Source: Vitis vinifera (Eukaryota > Streptophyta > Magnoliopsida > Vitales > Vitaceae). From it: a stretch of 64,000 nucleotides of DNA. Each line of letters opens with the position of its first letter. Position 1 is the stretch's first letter. The notes under the pieces are model-generated. The model worked only from the letters and a program-made list of their open reading frames with translations, did not search any database and was not told the origin of the DNA. Where the stretch lies: positions 27,913,501 through 27,977,500 of the forward strand of contig NC_081818.1 in NCBI RefSeq assembly GCF_030704535.1. Reading direction: 5' to 3'. Positions 26,583 through 40,625 of this stretch are shown piece by piece. A program made the translations under genes and the position numbers.

Positions 26583-29500
26583 ATGACAACTGCTGTAGCT
26601 GCAGGAAGCAGCAAACTGCATTTCAGAGAGACAGTGTGCAGGGGACAAAGTTGTGGCCAGGCTTCTTGGGTTTCCGGTGTAACATTCAAAGGATGCCCAC
26701 AGAAAGGGCTTTCAGGGTATTTATTTGGGATCTCTTTCCTAGTATTATCCGAGTCTTCATATGAATTTGATGCCACTGCAACTACTATGTACCTTATCAT
26801 TTAAAGAAAGGAACACCGATTAGAAGTTTACTTTTGAGTACAAGAGATACTTGAGATGTACTGAAATTCCATATTTTTTTCCTGGGTTTGTATAGAAAAA
26901 AATTGCATATATCATTTCTATTACTGGAAGATTTACAACTTGCCATTGGTTGGTCTCAATTTCCTTATGCTTTCATATCTTACATATGCTCAAATCATGT
27001 AGCATCTCAAAATAATTTTGTCTGTTTGCTGCATTAATATAGAGCTTTTCTGTATATTCTTACCCTTGTGCTAAATGCTTTATTTGTTTATTTATTTTTG
27101 TATGATTTCCCAGGTCTTCTTGGGTATCCAAAGTCCTTCAGATCCAGCGACGTAATTTTCGCCAATCTTCAATTAATGACAATTGGAAACCCCTAAGAGC
27201 AGTCAGTGCATCATACTTGAAAGATGGCTCTGTAAAGTATTTTGATTTTGCTGTAATTGGCAGTGGAGTTGCTGGTCTTCGCTATGCTCTTGAAGTTGCA
27301 AAGCATGGTTCTGTTGCAGTGATAACTAAAGCAGAGCCTCATGAAAGCAACACAAACTATGCTCAAGGTGGTGTTAGTGCTGTATTATGCCCTTTGGATT
27401 CCGTGGAGAGTCATATGCGAGACACTATCATAGCAGGAGCTTATCTATGTGATGAGGAGACTGTTAGAGTAAGCTTCTAGACTGATAATTTCGCTCTGTC
27501 ATTCATTCATTCATCATCTTTGCGATTTGGTAAGAGAATTGATTGCCATTCATTTTTTTCATGGGCTTCACATCCTGCTTAGTTGATCAAACTTGAAAAA
27601 TTTGTGTGCTGTGCCAAACCCATAAAATTTTAATGTGCACTCCTCCAGGCGTGGGTACCATTTAGGAGGAAGTTTGGTAGGAAAGGGGAAAAATATGGGG
27701 TATCGGGAAATCAGGTTAACAATATAGCTTGGAATAAATATTTTCGTTCTTATAATTCTAGGAATTTTCATGGTGGAATGTAACTCAAAAATGCTTTGAA
27801 AAAGGTTAAGAGAAGAATCTTTTCCTGAAATGCAACAGTTAATATTAGATGCATATATCTGATATACGTGATACCTCCAAATTCAATCCTCTGTACAGGA
27901 TAAGATTTGATTATAGTAAATGTACTAGCAAAAAATACTGTAGTACATTATCATGGGTGTCTTCCTTGAGTTACTTCTCAACAAGTCTGGATTGGGGATT
28001 TTTCATTTTTCTTTATAGTTCCCTCCTTGTGTTCTGTTCACGGCATGTTGAGACTTAATTATACTATTAAGTTCTGAGAAATTAGAAATAAGAACGCTTT
28101 TTTGCACCTATACCTGTTCTTACATTGTGTCAGAAATTCCAGATAAATATTATTCAATTAGCATCATTAACAATTTTCTTATGAGTCATCGAGCTTCTCC
28201 TCAAGTTTGTTATTATTCTCTAGGTGGTTTGTACAGAAGGACCTGACCGAATTAGAGAATTGATTGCCATGGGTGCATCATTTGATCATGGGGAAGATGG
28301 AAATTTGCATCTAGCGAGGGAGGGAGGGCATTCTCATCACCGAATTGTTCATGCCGCTGATATGACTGGAAGGGAGATTGAACGGGCTCTGTTGGAGGCA
28401 GTTGTCAATGATCCTAACATCTTCATGTTTGAACATCATTTTGCAATAGATTTGCTGACTTCTCAGGTTCACTTCTTCTCATGTTCTAATCCCATTCCAT
28501 ACAAAAATATAAAGTTCTACTGCCAAGTATATAGTCTACATTGGTATTTAGCTTTTACATAGTGTATAAAAATGTTTAGGGACAAGTGAATATTGCCAAG
28601 GTCTTCATAAGATCTTTGTAGTATAGATTTAGTGCTGTCAGTTTTGGTATTCAGGGGTAGTGCTAATAGTTTACAGGGTTCACACTTAACATATTTAATA
28701 CTGGGCTTGCAGGATGGTTCTGACACAGTTTGTCATGGTGTTGACACTTTGAATACTGAAACACAAGAGGTAAAAGCAATGGTCCTTAAACCTTTTTTCT
28801 TCTGTTTATTATGGTCCTCATTTTTCCTTCTACTCAAAACTTTATTCTGTCCTGTACTTCTTCTAGGTGGTACGATTTATTGCAAAAGTGATTTTACTTG
28901 CTTCAGGTGGAGCTGGACACATCTATCCAACAACCACGAATCCTCTGGTATCATATTGGTTTTTTTTTTTTCAAAAAAATTAATTGACTATATAACCTCT
29001 ACCTTGGAAACACTTTTGCATCTTGGCAGCAGACTAGCTTATTTGGAGAGCTGCAAACTCCTGTCGATGAATTTGCAGTATGCTGCTTCAAGATTGCTAC
29101 AATGCTTTGCATGTCTCAACATTTACAAAATGAATCAGTATTTGATTAGTAAAAATAAAAATCAAATTACCCAAAATTGAACCTGGATGGCTCCTTACTT
29201 CTAAAGTTCAATGTAAAAAGAGAATTCAAATCTCTCTCTCTCTCTTTCTCATATTCATTCCCTTCCTTCTTTAACAAAGTATTACACATCTAATCTTCTG
29301 CTTTTAGTAGACTATGACCAATTCTACTTGGATAGCATACATGTATTTTGTAGGATAAATAATTATTGGAATTGAAAGTTTGATTTTCCCTTTTATTGAT
29401 GTTGTTTTGTTCAAATATATGATAGAACGACAATGGTTGATTGTAGGTCTAATGCTCCTTTATTGAATTCATTGCTGCTATATGCGTATAGGTAGCCACT

Positions 29501-31216
29501 GGAGATGGAATAGCTATGGCACATCGCGCCCAGGCTGTAATTTCCAACATGGAGTAAGTAGAGAACCTTCAGTTTATTGTTAGAAGAATATATACTCTCT
29601 TCTTTTCTATCACCATATCATACTTGTCCTATCAAATAAACAACTATATGGTGCTAGACAGGCTGACATTTTATGATAATGTAAGAGGACCTGGATGTAC
29701 ATCAATTTCGTCATAGCATATGAATGCATAATTTTATCTCCTGTAACGATATAACTACAAAAATATTAATAATCTCCAAAATATGGAGATCAAATCATTT
29801 TTTGAAATCCAAAAATAATTTTATGATGATTTGAGGTCCGAAAATAATTTTATGATAATGAAGCTTGTGAAAAACTAAAGGCCTGTTTGGTATTTTTCAA
29901 CACCATCTTACACACTGGACACATTTCCTCCTGCACATATATACATATATATTTAGAAACAAAACATTTTAGGAATTGCAGTGGTTGGCTGGTTTGACAC
30001 CTGATTAAAAGGTCTCTAGGATGACAACCATCATTTGTATGTGATTAACGCTTCTATTTTGGTCAAGGAATTCTATTAGCTATAGTTTGGGCATAGGTGT
30101 AATAATTTTCCTCTTGCCCAACCAGTTTTCTATTAGAAGATCACATAGTAATTCTGGTTTTGGGGGATTCCTTTTTTTATTATTATTTATTTTTATCTTT
30201 TCAGGTTCGTGCAATTCCATCCAACTGCATTAGCTGATGAAGGTCTTCCCATAACACCAGCCAAAACACGAGAAAATGCATTTCTCATCACTGAAGCTGT
30301 CAGGGGTGATGGAGGCATCCTCTATAATTTAAGCATGGAAAGGTTCATGCCCTTGTATGATGAGAGAGCAGAGCTTGCTCCAAGGGATGTGGTAGCAAGA
30401 AGTATAGATGACCAGCTCAAAAAGCGTAATGAGAAGTATGTGCTACTTGATATAAGCCACAAGCCCAAAGAGAAGATTCTCTCCCACTTCCCTAACATTG
30501 CTGCTGAGTGCCTCAAGTATGGTTTAGACATTACCCGCCAACCAATACCAGTGGTTCCAGCTGCTCATTACATGTGTGGGGGGGTTCGTGCTGGACTCCA
30601 AGGGGAGACAAATGTGAGAGGCCTGTATGTGGCAGGTGAAGTTGCATGCACGGGTTTGCATGGAGCAAATCGACTTGCAAGCAACTCACTGCTTGAGGCA
30701 CTTGTTTTTGCACGAAGAGCTGTGCAGCCCTCAATTGATCACATGAGTAATTCCACTCTGGATCTCAGTGCTTCAAATTGGTGGGCAGAACCTGTTGTGC
30801 CAACTTCACTTGGGAGCAATATAATGAACGATGTTTTAAGTGGGACAAGAAAAGTGAGGAAAGAACTGCAATCAATCATGTGGAAGTATGTGGGAATTGT
30901 TCGTTCAACAAGAAGGCTGAAAACTGCTGAGCAGAGGATTGCTGAGTTGGAGGCTAAGTGGGAGCAGTACTTATTCCAGCAGGGGTGGGAGCCAACAATG
31001 GTGGGACTTGAAGCTTGTGAAATGAGGAACCTCTTCTGTTGTGCAAAGCTGGTAGTAAGCAGTGCCCTTGCTAGGCACGAGAGTCGGGGACTTCACTACA
31101 CCATTGATTTTCCTCACTTGGTGGAAAGCAAGAGGCTGCCAACAGTTATTTTCCCATGTTCCCCTATGAATGGTACTTGGAGTTCACGACAATTGCATAA
31201 TCAGCATATCCATTAG
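26583..31216 (+). CDS. AO: L-aspartate oxidase, plastidial
   Basis: Flavoenzyme that oxidises L-aspartate to iminoaspartate, the first step of de novo NAD synthesis in plastids; quinolinate synthase uses the product. Coding exons: 26583-26716, 27114-27468, 28224-28466, 28713-28769, 28867-28947, 29492-29553 and 30205-31216, all GT-AG, giving 647 residues (plant enzymes are about 650). Exon 1 encodes a Ser/Gly-rich transit peptide. The FAD dinucleotide motif GSGVAGL is in exon 2, and SGGAGHIYPTTTNP in exons 5-6. Residues matching the E. coli NadB active site are present: His in VQFHPTAL, Arg in ELAPRDVVARS, His in PAAHYMCGG and Arg in GANRLASNSL. The C-terminal ARHESRGLHY is typical. The ATG is the first in frame after the 5'-UTR intron acceptor. 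Confidence 0.96.
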
Positions 31217-32895
31217 ATGCACAGGGTTTGTATCCACTCTTCCTGCCAAAACTTGTATTTATAGGATACCCTTTTACCTTTTTATGTCTGGAAATTCACC
31301 TTCAGCAAGAACTGAAGTGTGACTAACTGCAGTTTGGCAGCATTTCGAGAACCTCCATCAGATTACTTTCTTAGTTTTTTCTTTCTTCCTTTTTTACATT
31401 TTGTTTTGTTTTTGTTTTTTTTTTTGGTTTTTTCAATTTGAGATATATATGATTCATTTTTTTCAAATAAAGAAAGAAATTGTGTTCAGGCCAGTATCAA
31501 AATGGTCTTCTCATCCTGCTACTTACATAAATTAGTCTCAGTAACTAGGAATTTGCAAATTCATGATTATGTGGCATAGTATGTTTTAACATGTAAGTTA
31601 CAGTCATTGATCTGTTATATTTAAATTATCATGACTACAATTAGCTGCATTGAGAAAATGTTTCCTATAAATTGTGTTCATATAGTTAAGACATCATTTT
31701 TATTTTTCATCCTAGGAATGTCAATGACATCCACTCCTTTGCACAGGTACTTGAAATCCATTACTTCCTAAGCCAGGTTTCATGCATGACAAACCATTAT
31801 CCCAACTTTTGGGTTGTCTTTGATTTTTCCGAAAGGTTGAAGTGGCCATATTCCATGTACAGTGACTGAAATTCAGTCACAAAGTATCAGGCTTGCAAGA
31901 TATCTCTTCCTCTGGTAGATGATTGCAGTGAGAAAATGCCTTCTCTTCTTCTTAACCCTTCTAGGAAAGGAATAATCTTTATAATGGTTGAGGGAGTGGC
32001 CAATAGTTGAACTCACAACATGGTAGCAGATCTTGTTTCCCTGTTTTACCCTTCCTTGAGTCATTAGCAGCTGGATTTTTAAGAATGGTATGCCCCCCAT
32101 TGCCAAAGAAATTGGTAATTCAAATCATTCCTTTCTTTTTCCACAAAGATCAAGATGGCCTTACAGTTCCTGTGAGCCCAGAAACCAATTACAGAGGAAC
32201 CTAATTCTAAAATGATTTGGCATCTGAAATGTTTAGTTTTACATGAGCAGTGATTTTTTATACAATATCCACTCAATCTGCTGAGAACCCAATTTATTAC
32301 CAAGAAGCAATGAGATTCCAGAATCTTAAAGATGGATCAAAGGCATGAGGCTCAAACAGAGCATCTCCTCCTATCCTTTTCTTCTTAAACCCCAATGCTG
32401 ACTTTGGAATTTTTAACATAATGCCATTATCAATATCAGATAGATTATCAGGCTTTCAAAGTAATCTTCTGTCATAAGCTGCCCCTTCCCTTTCCATATC
32501 CCAAATTATATTCTGTTGTTCTGATTATAAAAAACTAATATATCAATATTTTATAACCCACAAGATTAAAATAGCTTTGGAGGATTATTTGTCCTACTAC
32601 AAAGCAATGGCAGAACCCGACAGAGAATTCCTTATTGTGATTGAAGAAAGCAATTGTAAAGTATTTCTGAGAGTCCAGGACTTGAATATGGTAGTAAGAA
32701 GGAGACAAAGACATGTAACAGGACAATGGATGTGATGCCATTTGAGCTACTGTTTTTAAAGTTGCATATGTTGCCACTTGACCTTGATATCATCCATATT
32801 GGTAGGAGCCCAGAAGCCATGCTATGCTTGTTGGCTTTATTAGAACTCTGGTGGAATCTACATTGTCCAGTTAGCCGAAATAACACTACCTATCC
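31217..32895. other. Spacer between L-aspartate oxidase and the broken GDSL gene
   Basis: The first few hundred bases are probably 3' UTR, with a T-rich stretch at 31370-31430. No exon 1 of a GDSL gene (FGDS motif) can be found here. Bases about 32770-32895 show faint likeness to the start of GDSL exon 2, such as CTCTGGTGGAATCTACATTG and CGAAATAACACTACC, but in shifted frames. Confidence 0.5.
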
Positions 32896-33419
32896 ATTCA
32901 GCCTGGTGATTTTAGTCCTTTCCATCTCGGTGTTCAAGTCTCCCAGTTCATACAATTAAAATCACGCACCACAGAGCTTTATAAGAACCTCAGTGATTCC
33001 GGTCAGTTAAGAATCCTCTCCTTTTCATATCCAGTGCACCTAGAAAATGCTTGATTGTAAGACTGCATTCCTATTCTTTGTTGGGGTTCCCAATTCTGCT
33101 TTCTGTTGCCATATTTCATTTCTTGGCAACTAAACTGAGCTTGAATGATTTGTTGTGCTAACTCTCATGGTTTAACAGATGACATCTTTGGCTCAGGGAT
33201 GATCTCATCATATGCAGCCCGTCTCCCAAAACCTGGTGAATTTTCAAAGGCCTTGTACACAATTGATATTGGCCATAACGATCTTGCATATGCTTTCCAA
33301 AACAAGGACTTTTTACAAGAGTACGGTAATTTAAAAAAATTATTCTTAAATTATTGTAGCAGAAGAAGTTATTCCAAATGTATAATAATTTTTGCCAGGT
33401 AGGAGAGAGGGGGCATAGA

Positions 33420-34777
33420 TAATTTTTTTTTAAAAAAAAAAATTAAATGGAAATCCAAAAAAAAAAAAAAAATCAAAAGGGAAATCGTCTCTTGACATTA
33501 AAAAAAATTAATATTACAAAAAATAAATTTTTTTTTTAAAAATTCCCTTTTAATTTTTTTTAATTTAGTTTGGAAAATCATTTCCAATTTTTGGTAATAC
33601 TATTTTTTTTAATGGGAAATTTTTTTTAAAATTTTCCTTTGACTTTTTTTTTTTTTAATTTAGTTTGGAAAATCATTTCCAATTTTTTGTAATATTATTT
33701 TTTTTTAATGGGAAATCGTCTTTTGATTTTTTTTTTTTAATTTAGTTTGGAAAATCATTTCCAATTTTTGGTAATATTATTTTTTTAATGGGATTTTTTT
33801 TAAAATTTCCCTTTGAATTTTTTTTTTAATTTAGTTTGGAAAATCATTTCCAATTTTTGGTAATATTATTTTTTTTTAATGGGAAATTTTTTTTGAAATT
33901 TCCCTTTGAAATTTTTTTTTAATTTAGTTTGGATTTCCAATTTTGTGTAATATTATTTTTTTTATTTTTTTATTTTGGGACTTTTTTTTCTTTTTTAAAA
34001 ATTTATTTTTTGTAATATTAATTTTTTTTAATGAGAAATCGTCTCTTGAAGAGACGATTTTCTTTTGAGATTTTTTTAAATTTATCTTTTGTAATATTTT
34101 TTTTTTTTAATGGGAAATTGTCTGTTCAAGAGACGATTTCCCTTTTGAATTTTTTTTTTTAAATGGGAAAATCGTCTGTTCAAGAGATGATTTCCCTTTG
34201 ATTTTTTTTTTAAATTAGTTTGGATTTCCAATTTTTTGTAATATTAATTTTTTTTTTAATTTGAGATTTTTTTAAAAAAAATTATTTTTTGTAATATTAA
34301 TTTTTTTTTAAATTTGAGATTTTTTTTATAATAATTTTTTTTCCCTTTGAATTTTTTTTTTTAAATTAGTTTGGATTTCAAATTTTTGTAATATTAATTT
34401 TTAAAAAAAATTAGTTTGGATTTCCCTTTTGATTTTTTTTTTAAAAATTAGTTTGGATTTCCAATTTTTTGTAATATTAATTTTTTTTTAATTTTAGATT
34501 TTTTTAAAAAAATTATTTTTTGTAATATTAATTTTTTTTTTAAATTTGAGATTTTTTTATAATAATTTTTTTTCCCTTTGAATATTTTTTTTTAAATTAG
34601 TTTGGATTTCAAATTTTTGTAATATTAATTTTAAAAAAAAAATAGTTTGGATTTCCCTTTTGATTTTTTTTTTAAAATTAGTTTGGATTTCCAATTTTTT
34701 GTAATATTAATTTTTTTTTTCTAATTTGGGATTTTTTTTAAAAAAAATTATTTTTTGTAATATTCATTTTTTTTTTT
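33420..34777. repeat. AT-rich tandem array with hairpin units inside the transposon
   Basis: Units of roughly 70-110 bp recur many times, built from TTTAGTTTGGATTTCCAATTT, TTTGTAATATTAATTTTT and a CCCTTTGAATTT block. Some carry a near-perfect hairpin: at about 34036-34060 the arm AAATCGTCTCTT, one central G, then its reverse complement. Similar units resume after the nested element (36030-36450). Long T runs make the assembly of this stretch doubtful. Confidence 0.75.
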
Positions 34778-36026
34778 GTTAGAAATATGAGGTTAATCCA
34801 ACCTATGGTAATCACCTTAGAGAGGGGGGGGGGGGGGGGGGGGAGGGGGGGGGGGTGAATAGGGTGATGGTCTCTTTTCGCAAATTTAAACTATGTGAAT
34901 GAAGAAACAATTATATGCAAGTATATAATAAGCAATATAAAGACAATTGCATATAAATTAAAGATTAGGGAAGAGAGAATGCAAACACAAGAGTTTATAG
35001 TGGTTTGGTGCAACCTGGCATACATCCACTCTCTTCTAGCTTCAATCCCAAGCTTGAAGTTCCACTAATTCAAGGCTTCCAAACCAAGCCTTCAAGTAAT
35101 ACAATTGGATTATGGTTCCAATTCACCCTCTTGGACTTTTGGCTCAAAACACCCTTTACATTTCTCAAGAGATATCCCACTCTTAAACAACCCCTCAAGT
35201 GATACCTCACACTTGAGAAACTTTCTTTCAAATGTTTATAAATAAAATGATCTCTCAAAAATCCTAGCACAAGAACTTTAAGCTCAAATGATACAAGAAA
35301 AACTAAGATTGAATTGTGCACTAAAGATATGCAAGTTTTGAAATAATGGTGCACTAAAAAATACTCTTCCAATGCTCAAATATAATAAAAAAAGATTTAG
35401 GAAGGTTAAGTTCTTTAAACAATGAAGATTGTAGCATTTTTATAGAAGAGAAAAACCAAATTAGTCGTTTGGGGGTTCGACCGGTCGAGTTAGGGGTCGA
35501 TCGGTTGACTAGCTGTTAGCATTAAATGCTTGGCAGGTGACCGTTAGCCTCAACCGGACCTCGATCGGACGAGCATAACTGGTCGACCGGTTTCTCATCC
35601 GGTTGAACCGGTTGAGCCATTTTTTGGCTCAACGCCCAACCTTTTTCAACTTTAAAACCTTTTAAAACAAGTTTGAAAGATATTTAACACAAGATTTTAG
35701 TTGAAAAACATAAAATCATCAAATTCTAAAGATATTTAAAACAATATTACTCTTGGAAGATTTTGGTGCATAAATAAAGAATGAAATGTATGAAAGTCCT
35801 AGTGCACCAACAACCTTACAAAGAGATTTTATGAAGCTTGGGTCTTGAAAAACTCTTCTCTTTGAGGTGGTCTTCTTCTTTATGATTTCTTATTGGCTTG
35901 ATTTATCTTTGTGATTGTCACTTTGGAAATCGTCTTGCCTAATTACACTTGAAATATAATTATTAGTTCTAAACCTTGTTTTGTTATCATCAAAATCAAG
36001 ATTAACCAAACCTTGGTTTCACATTT
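34778..36026 (+). mobile_element. LTR-like fossil nested in the transposon
   Basis: An approximately 1.25-kb block begins TGTTAGAAATATGAGG and ends TTGGTTTCACA, giving TG...CA termini. It is flanked by TTTTT on both sides, which is not informative in T-rich sequence. Composition changes sharply at both ends from the T-rich array. It carries a G-tract followed by GTGAATAGGG and a GCAAACACAAGAGTTTATAG stretch that I recall from dispersed plant LTR-type repeats. No coding region is present, so it looks like a solo LTR or non-autonomous element. It is younger than the transposon that it entered. Confidence 0.5.
34824..34855 (+). repeat. G homopolymer tract G20-A-G11
   Basis: Twenty G, one A, then eleven G, inside the nested LTR-like element. 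Such a tract could form G-quadruplexes and is prone to slippage, so its length may be an assembly artefact. Confidence 0.9.
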
Positions 36027-37563
36027 TTAATGGGAAATCATTTTTTTTTAATATTAAGAGACGATTTCCCTTTTGATTCTTTTTTTCCTTTGAATTTTTT
36101 TTAAAATTAATTTGGATTTCCAATTTTTTGTAATATTAATTTTTTTAAAATTAGTTTGGATTTCCTTTTTGATTTTTTTTTTAAAATTAGTTGGATTTTC
36201 AATTTGTTGTAATATTAATTTTTTTTTTAATGGAAATCGTCATTTCAAAAGACATTTCTCTTTTATTTTTTTTTAAAATGGGAAAATCGTCTCTTCAAGA
36301 GACGATTTCCCTTTGAATATTTTTTTTAATTAGTTTGGATTTTCAATTTTTTTTAATGAAGAGATGATTTCCTTTTTGAATTTTTTTTATTTCCATTAAT
36401 TTTTTTTTTAAAAAAAATCGTCTTTTCAAAAGACGATTTTGCTTAAAAATTTTTTTATCCCCGATCCCTTTCTTTTACCTGATAAAAACTATCATATATT
36501 TGGAATAACTTTTTTTTTTGGGATAATTTAAAAATAATTTTTTTAAATCACTATAGTCGTGTCAAAAGTCCTCCTAAACAAGACAGAAGAGCAGGTTCGA
36601 GCAACTATTCCAAACATAGTTAATCAATTCACTCAAGCACTACAGGTAAGCAACAAACACCTGTGAACACACAATTTCATTCACATATAAATATTTTTAG
36701 GCACATTACTGTTAAGTCAGTACCAAACCCAACTAACACATCTAGCTTTTTCAAAAACAAATTCCACAAAATACGGATCTTCACACCTTTTCAACTAATT
36801 CTACTACTAACAAAAGATACAAAAGATTTCTTAAAGTATCTAGAAAATTCTCAAATTCTAACAACACTCCTCTGATTCATTGCCATTTCTTCGGTTGCAT
36901 TTCACGGTCCTGTAATCACCATCTCATTTATGGTAATCCTTGACATTGTAGCAACTTTACGATGAAGGGGCAAGATTCTTCTGGGTGCACAATCCAGGAC
37001 CAATTGGTTGCTTGCCATTAAGTGCTATACCGTACCAAGCCATGAACGGTTCTCTTGACCAGTACGGTTGTATCAAGTACCAAAACGACATTGCTCAGGA
37101 GTTCAACCAGCAGCTAAAGGACGGTGTAACCCAACTTAAGACCCAGCTCCCACTTGCTACATTCACCTACATTGACATCTATTCAGCTAAATTTTCACTA
37201 ATCAGCGATGCAAAGAATCAAGGTAGGCCTGTTTATCAGTCTCATTGTTAACAATATTCCACTGTAATGTGGTGTTCTGGCTCACTCATAATCTGTAGGA
37301 CTGGTCTAAATTGTGTGGTGACGGCAGGCTTTGATGACCCTTTGAACTACTGTTGTGGTAGTCTATTTCCTTATCCAGTCTTCTGTGGCTCTACCATGGA
37401 AGTGAATGAGACAGTGTATGGTAATCCTTGTGATGATCCCTGGGCTCGCATTAGCTGGGATGGCATACACTATACTGAGGCTGCCAATCGATGGGTTGCA
37501 ACCAAGATTATCAGCCGTTCACTGTCTGATCCTCCGGTCCCAATTACAAATGCTTGTTCTTAG

Positions 37564-39123: not shown

Positions 39124-40625
39124 ATGGAGTCTGTAAAGCTGTTTTGGCTGTTTGGCCTATTGATTATAGGATCAGCAGGAGAGTGTATGGGAGTGATGGG
39201 CGGTCATGGTCCACGGAGATGCAGCTTTCCGGCTATTTTCAACTTTGGTGACTCCAATTCAGACACTGGAGGACGGTCTGCAGCCATCAGTGAGGTCTTT
39301 CTGCCCAATGGCGAAACCTTCTTCGGCAAGGCTTCAGGAAGGTTTTGTGATGGTCGCCTAATATTAGACTTCATAAGTAAGTCCATATTTTCTTTATACA
39401 AATATTTCAAGTCGTTGTCTTTCTTCTAAGTTTTATTCAGCGCAGGTGAGACACTGGGCTTACCATATTTGAATGCATATTTGGATTCCATGGGGACGAA
39501 TTTCTGGCATGGAGCAAATTTTGCGACTGGGGGTTCATCCATTAGGCCAGGGGGGTATAGCCCATTCCACCTTGAGATCCAACTCGCTCAGTTCAAACGA
39601 TTTAAATCTCAAACTACAGCTCTGTTTCTGCAGCTGAACCATAACTGTCAGTCTCTTTCTCTATCTTGCATGCGGCCTTTTTGGGCACTGAAATCATACT
39701 AACAGGCCGTGGTTGGTCTTGTTTCTGTCATGTCTAGGCACTACAGCACCTTTCAAAAGCGAAGTCCCAAGGCCCAGGGACTTCTCAAAGGCACTATACA
39801 CCATTGACATAGGGCAGAATGATCTTGCTTATGGTTTTCAGCACACAAATGAGGAAAAAGTGCTTGCTTCCATTCCTGATATCCTCAATGTGTTGTCTGG
39901 AGTAGTACATGTAAGTATTTTGAGTCAGTTTGTCTCCAGTTTGGGCATGATCAAACAGTTATATTCAAGCTTGAAACTTATGGTGGTGTTCCATGTTTCA
40001 GCAACTATATGAGGAAGGTGGAAGAACATTTTGGATACATAACACAGGCCCAATCGGTTGCTTGCCATACAGTGTTATATATTACCAACAAAAACCCCGA
40101 AATCTGGACCGTTACGGCTGCGTGAAGCCTCATAATAAGGTGGCCCAGGAATTCAACAAGCAACTTAAGGACATGGTCATCAAGCTAAGGGCACAGCTTC
40201 CTCATGCAGAATTCACATATGTGGATGTGTATTCGGTTAAATACTCATTGGTTAGCCAAGCAAAAGATCTAGGTAACTCCAGAAAAACCAATCACAATGC
40301 AGTGATATTTCTTAGTTTTTTTCTAAAATTAAACCATGTTTAGGTATCAAGAAGTTCCTAATTATTTGGGTAATGGTGATGGGCAGGTTTTGTTGATCTG
40401 ATGAACTTCTGTTGTGGTAGTTACTACGGTTACCATGTGGAATGTGGGCAGAAAGCAGTGGTGAATGGAACAGTCTATGGTATTCCATGCGAACATCCAT
40501 CCAGGCACATTAGCTGGGACGGCACACACTACTCAGAGGCGGCCAACGAATGGGTTGCAAAAGCCATTCTCAATGGCTCCTTCTCCGACCCACCAATTCC
40601 AGTATCAGAGGCTTGCCATCAGTAG
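39124..40625 (+). CDS. GDSL esterase/lipase (ENOD8-like), secreted
   Basis: Ser hydrolase of the plant SGNH/GDSL family. Exons: 39124-39376, 39446-39646, 39738-39910, 40002-40272 and 40387-40625, all GT-AG, total 378 residues, normal for the family. The N terminus MESVKLFWLFGLLIIGSAGE is a signal peptide, so the product enters the secretory pathway. Block I is FGDSNSDTGG (Ser nucleophile), block II has HGANFATGGSS, block III is GQNDLA (Asn of the oxyanion hole) and block V is SWDGTHYSEAAN (catalytic Asp and His). NGS/NGT sequons suggest N-glycosylation. The substrate cannot be told; relatives act on acylated cell-wall or lipid substrates. The gene lies 1.56 kb downstream of a damaged tandem paralogue in the same orientation. 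Confidence 0.94.

Follow-up and report, generated by a model that had tools for sequence, protein, structure and literature searches.

Structure of the locus

An exon of a GDSL esterase/lipase gene in grapevine (Vitis vinifera) is interrupted by a DNA transposon in the stretch analysed here, a 64,000-nt window of contig NC_081818.1 (C14:27913501–27977500) that was compared with the 495.6-Mb genome of 21 contigs. On the plus strand, the gene comprises the remnant 3′ half of exon 2 (32893–32994, placed by paralog homology and protein-to-DNA alignment), the two parts of exon 3 on the 5′ and 3′ sides of the insertion (33178–33305, with an uncertain exact 5′ boundary, and 36582–36645), exon 4 (36952–37222) and exon 5 including the stop codon (37328–37563). 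Exon 3 is split at 33306–36571 by a 3266-bp non-autonomous transposon with long terminal inverted repeats (TIRs), Mutator-type by structure, which starts with GGACTTTT and ends with AAAAGTCC. The TIRs, recovered by inverted-repeat search and family matches, measure about 135 nt each (left, 33306–33440, plus strand; right, 36437–36571, minus strand), and the inverted arms (33305–33440 and 36437–36572, 136 nt) are 74% complementary. The element is bracketed by a 10-bp target site duplication, TCCAAAACAA at 33296–33305 and TCCTAAACAA at 36572–36581, with 9 of 10 positions identical; neither element nor duplication is assigned a strand, and both are beyond chance.

Taking out the element and one duplication yields an open exon (...DLAYAFQNKTEEQVRATIPN..., translated as ...AYAFQNKTEEQVRATIPN...). 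A genome search with the exon 3–5 protein gave 90 matches, and, counted from its rows, 14 exon-3-sized and 4 longer matches from other loci cross the insertion site unbroken; because these 18 run through it, the site is a normal position within the exon. An earlier note on the window, made from its sequence, had described the transposon in exon 3, the 10-bp duplication, the restoration of frame upon removal and a nested long terminal repeat (LTR)-like element, and our analysis reproduced the ends, arms and coordinates as well as each of these points.

A non-autonomous transposon family

The element belongs to a repeated family. At least 59 genome matches were found for its left end (40 of 404 candidates scored) and at least 40 for its right end (40 of 84 scored), and a 33-base end pattern allowing up to 2 mismatches occurred 164 times in forward and 142 times in reverse orientation (306 in all), against 0 and 0 for a reversed control. 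At up to 3 mismatches, the sole genome match to a pattern from the right end of the window copy was that end itself. We fetched 32 family loci, 26 with both ends; the 6 with one recovered end were omitted from the duplication count. Ten-base-pair duplications at least 8/10 identical flank 18 of the 26 paired copies, two of these 18 having one duplication in common and looking like one event copied. The remaining paired copies showed a 9-bp duplication (2), an 11-bp duplication (8/11; 1) or none that was clear at fixed ends (5); sliding the ends by up to 2 nt gave 7/8 (L029) and 8/8 (L060) in two of these five.

A further copy of 9.8 kb (L061, 44–9888) has both family ends and a duplication matching at 8/10, bringing the 10-bp total to 19/27. 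It was considered as a possible autonomous partner, but five of its open reading frames (ORFs) had no Pfam match at E ≤ 0.001; judged by eye, its inner ORFs resemble plant gene fragments, and it is a possible Pack-MULE. As a sign of a MURA-type transposase, PF10551 matches (150 of 791 candidates scored) were checked by eye against the TIR places on contigs C5, C8, C13, C15 and C18; none lay close, and no autonomous partner emerged. Mutator-like elements are marked by long TIRs and target duplications of 8–11 bp (PMC6446971), and the family combines such duplications, here of 10 bp, with long TIRs. It therefore appears to be non-autonomous and Mutator-type, a class assigned from structure because no transposase was tied to the family.

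The grapevine elements Mutavine-1 to -18 are described in their survey as Mutator-like, several with long TIRs and many as deleted copies, and as having 9-nt duplications whenever these were found (PMC2528002). The present family resembles them, by description, in its long TIRs and deleted copies, and differs in its 10-bp duplications.

An LTR-like insert nested in the transposon

Within the transposon lies a 1247-bp TG...CA insert (34777–36023, without assigned strand) that starts with TGTTAGAAAT and ends with TTTCACA. It is LTR-like by its many genome relatives (40 of 2364 candidates scored), some of which form same-strand pairs about 3.5–4 kb apart, on C16 (4.295/4.299 Mb) and C3 (19.489/19.493 Mb). 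The insert is likely a solo LTR, because it is present as a single copy in the window and its relatives elsewhere are paired with the spacing of the two LTRs of one element. Its own duplication falls in poly-T and is uninformative.

Compared with three full-length copies, the insert carries 54 private changes at 1047 comparable sites (5%), 34 of them C>T or G>A, with Kimura distances of 0.105–0.110; there are 7 private indels, 6 of them outside homopolymers. The transposon must be older than this nested insertion. A long G tract interrupted by one A (34824–34855) differs privately in length by 23 nt from the three relatives.

Candidate splice sites in the terminal repeats

The earlier note proposed that the TIRs supply a ready-made intron, and the two sites on which this proposal depends fared differently. 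The candidate donor GT (ACG/GTAATT, 33326–33327, plus strand) is indeed carried by the inverted repeat as a family trait: GT occupies positions 21–22 in 39 of the 54 family ends compared, and the exact TACGGTAATT occurs in 23/54. The candidate acceptor AG (CACTATAG/TCG, 36555–36556, plus strand) arises from a change present in 1/54 ends, the right end of the window copy, and any YAG within the last 40 nt was seen in 4/54. Joining 33325 to 36557 would add DFLQEYVVSKVLLNK, exactly the 45 nt in frame that had been claimed.

Both sites were scored with a small matrix built from 38 GDSL introns of this genome (39 candidate introns, two dropped as poor joins and one window intron added by hand). Absolute scores are rough and the reference set is effectively smaller than its count, as it represents one gene family, includes two introns of the window gene itself and draws on near-identical L016, L017 and L018. 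The donor scored 7.5, within the range of the reference donors, 16/38 of which score no higher; other donors near the left end reached 6.4 (33235) and 6.3 (33398). The acceptor scored −2.6, below 38/38 reference acceptors, on a matrix that treats TAG acceptors harshly because the reference introns have C at −3 in 34/38. The strongest acceptor near the right end (GAGCAG/GTT at 36594; 4.2) lies in the downstream exon, 38 nt further on, and breaks the frame with the TIR donor.

An open frame is preserved by 38 of the 150 donor–acceptor pairs near the ends, with the 33326/36556 pair in sixth place among the 38. We also placed 27 copies virtually in two orientations and three frames, and 87 of these 162 insertions gave some frame-keeping, stop-free GT..AG pair; frame-keeping is therefore not beyond chance. 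Both scores of the window pair, adopted as thresholds after the fact, were reached by 6/162, two of the six being the window copy itself. The ready-made intron thus fails as a statement about the element, because the donor is a family property and the acceptor is not, and with the acceptor in a single end we rejected it as a trait of the family.

These counts also bear on whether the transposon family is an introner with ends built for splicing in either orientation. The recurrent GT near the ends would suit such a family, as would the arithmetic of its 10-bp duplications, with which use of a terminal AAAAG/TCC acceptor would leave a stretch of 33 nt, divisible by three. The scarcity of YAG at the ends argues the other way, as does the score of −4.2 for the window copy's terminal AAG acceptor. 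Introner splice sites are common to the family or come from the duplication, and here one of the two candidate sites is private. Members of an introner family are also introns in many genes. Joining the flanks of the 26 paired copies produced 8 ORFs of at least 70 amino acids across the junction, from 6 copies; six of these ORFs were run against Pfam (the window's and five others, leaving out two of three from L059), and only the window's scored above a family cut-off, the L059 ORF having one match below it (E 0.072). Considering such junction ORFs, in a family with hundreds of ends, 1/26 joined copies thus lies in a recognisable exon. A large survey, moreover, reports no introners in land plants (PMC9860276), and we regard an introner family as highly improbable.

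The host gene has lost its 5′ end

The earlier note was sound on the element, its duplication and the frame, and did not mention that the host gene is incomplete: neither exon 1 nor the 5′ half of exon 2 could be detected upstream of exon 3. In a frameshift-tolerant protein-to-DNA alignment over 31200–33177, three exon 1 probes scored 27–29, no higher than the best of 12 base shuffles (29) and far below the 167 reached at the tandem paralog; over the same range, exon 2 was found as residues 32–65 alone (score 99; shuffle maximum 33). Nucleotide homology to the tandem paralog begins at about 32892. When the sequence upstream of the exon 2 remnant was aligned with five paralogs at the nucleotide level, the scores (24, 24, 21, 29 and 19) did not exceed their 60-shuffle maxima (29, 39, 28, 29 and 28), and in-frame stop codons lie directly upstream of the remnant. 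A genome search with the exon 1–2 protein of the tandem paralog had the exon 2 remnant (query 84–117) as its sole match at the locus; the 73 matches genome-wide were not each checked for membership in a complete gene.

Consistent with this picture, the Pfam GDSL profile PF00657 matches the window gene at positions 73–207 of 208 (E 3.9e-31) and leaves profile positions 1–72, which include block I (GDS) with the catalytic serine, unmatched there. The tandem paralog downstream (39226–40616, exons 1–5) is matched along the full profile (1–208), and its exons 3–5 are 59% identical in amino acids to those of the remnant (205 aligned codons). Of 71 residues that do not vary among six paralogs, 10 are changed in the window gene, against 1 to 6 of 62–67 for the paralogs themselves.

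With exon 1 and half of exon 2 lost, a spliced in-frame product would be without the GDSL serine block, and because this nucleophile block is gone the window copy probably does not encode a functional GDSL enzyme; the locus is probably a dead gene. The view of the earlier note, in which the gene is still functional and the element serves as a working in-frame intron, draws on the 45-nt in-frame product and on exons 3–5, which are open and encode GHND and DGIHYT blocks. The C-terminal blocks of GDSL proteins are named GxND and DxxH. Against a working gene stand the missing serine block and first half of exon 2, together with the stops that precede what is left of that exon, and we consider it very unlikely.

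Upstream of the remnant, a 630-bp repeat (32028–32658) has several genome copies (C19, C5) that are 96–98% identical, which points to a recent arrival. It lies between the remnant and exons at 27106–31213 (plus strand) that, recognised by eye from their translation, we take to be those of an L-aspartate-oxidase-like gene. An Rfam scan of the window at the gathering threshold gave 0 matches.

Constraint and the history of the insertion

We favour, at a probability of roughly two-thirds, an old Mutator-type insertion in exon 3 of what is now a 5′-truncated GDSL remnant, with splicing, if any, incidental and inefficient, and not built into the element. On this reading, a non-autonomous Mutator-type long-TIR transposon would have entered exon 3 of the GDSL esterase/lipase gene long ago and would later have taken up the LTR-like insert, and the locus today would be a remnant without its catalytic-serine exon. 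Any transcript could use the family-borne donor near the end of the element, for which the matching acceptor is weak and present in this copy only. Predicted splicing at the candidate sites would thus be weak, with competing downstream acceptors, and the insertion may for a while have been tolerated as an inefficiently spliced intron.

Several observations weigh against this reading. Only one copy was found in a coding exon, and it alone has an acceptor at that spot. Exons 3–5 are open over 232 codons (696 nt), and both introns between them have sound sites. The exact base of truncation is uncertain, because paralog L013, with gaps, can be aligned as far as 32867, up to 25 nt beyond the upstream limit for the tandem paralog. 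In a branch model of exons 3–5, the ratio of nonsynonymous to synonymous substitution rates (dN/dS) of the window gene was 0.26 against a background of 0.18, and twice the log-likelihood difference (2ΔlnL) was 1.39, which is not significant; since the window gene's ratio is not significantly above background, much of its branch was under constraint. The test lacks specificity, because shifts are common in the GDSL family: with paralogs as foreground, 2ΔlnL was 5.7 for L011, 4.5 for L012, 12.5 for L013 and 0.0 for L014 (L016 and L020 were not tested as foreground). Finally, when the private branch of the LTR insert was scaled to 696 nt, the probability that neutral sequence would escape nonsense changes and indels was 0.006–0.017 if the whole branch follows the insertion, 0.08–0.13 if half of it does and 0.28–0.36 if a quarter does. 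The lesion-free state of exons 3–5 in the face of the changes in the LTR favours past splicing, and is suggestive only.

In an alternative history, the insertion would long have been tolerated through splicing, with the donor supplied by the TIR, the acceptor gained by private mutation after insertion and the 5′ end lost only recently. The old nested LTR beside undamaged exons 3–5, the ordinary donor, the open in-frame product and the constraint along most of the branch all suit this history, as does the 630-bp repeat just upstream, whose 96–98% identical copies indicate that the region changed recently. Its difficulties are the weakness of the acceptor, the stronger frame-breaking acceptor shortly downstream and a chance calculation that hinges on how much of the LTR branch followed insertion; the repeat, moreover, stops 234 bp before the truncation point, so that its link to the timing of the 5′ loss is a guess. 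We consider long tolerance through splicing unlikely, though deserving of attention. In its fuller form, in which the exon insertion would long have been a real intron that took up the LTR harmlessly, with the family donor, a later private acceptor in the right TIR and only recent loss of the 5′ end, it is slightly more doubtful still.

Relation to known systems

Transposons that behave as introns are known from maize. Giroux et al. (1994) reportedly described a Ds insertion acting as an intron, and En/Spm–dSpm and Mu insertions are further examples; the maize cases are backed by transcripts. The grapevine locus shares with them a DNA transposon that interrupts an exon and has candidate splice sites at, or close to, its ends. 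Unlike those cases, it is known from sequence alone, its host gene is truncated and its acceptor is not a family feature. Transposon insertion is a recognised route of intron gain, and elements may hold their own splice sites near their ends, according to a review (PMC3443670) that cites the maize Ds case. The introners of Aureococcus, as described in PMC9860276, have both splice sites inside the element and leave a 12-bp residual insertion. The window copy likewise carries its two candidate sites internally and, if spliced, would leave an in-frame remainder derived from element and duplication; in contrast to introners, which recur as introns genome-wide with common sites, one joined copy here is exonic and its acceptor is private. 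The locus is thus best described as an exonic long-TIR insertion that may be spliced, similar in anatomy to known cases and lacking the family-level hallmarks of introners. In the titles and abstract openings of literature on transposable-element splicing, intron gain, duplications of grape Mutator-like elements and GDSL surveys, this locus was not found, and it may be in print elsewhere.

If the element is not spliced, the locus is unremarkable, an old insertion within the remains of a gene, and it illustrates how little weight a frame-keeping GT..AG pair carries in an AT-rich element, such pairs having arisen in more than half of our virtual insertions. If it is spliced, the locus would provide a datable plant case in which a transposon became an intron in two steps, with an inherited donor and an acquired acceptor, and would bear on the origin of introns in land plants.

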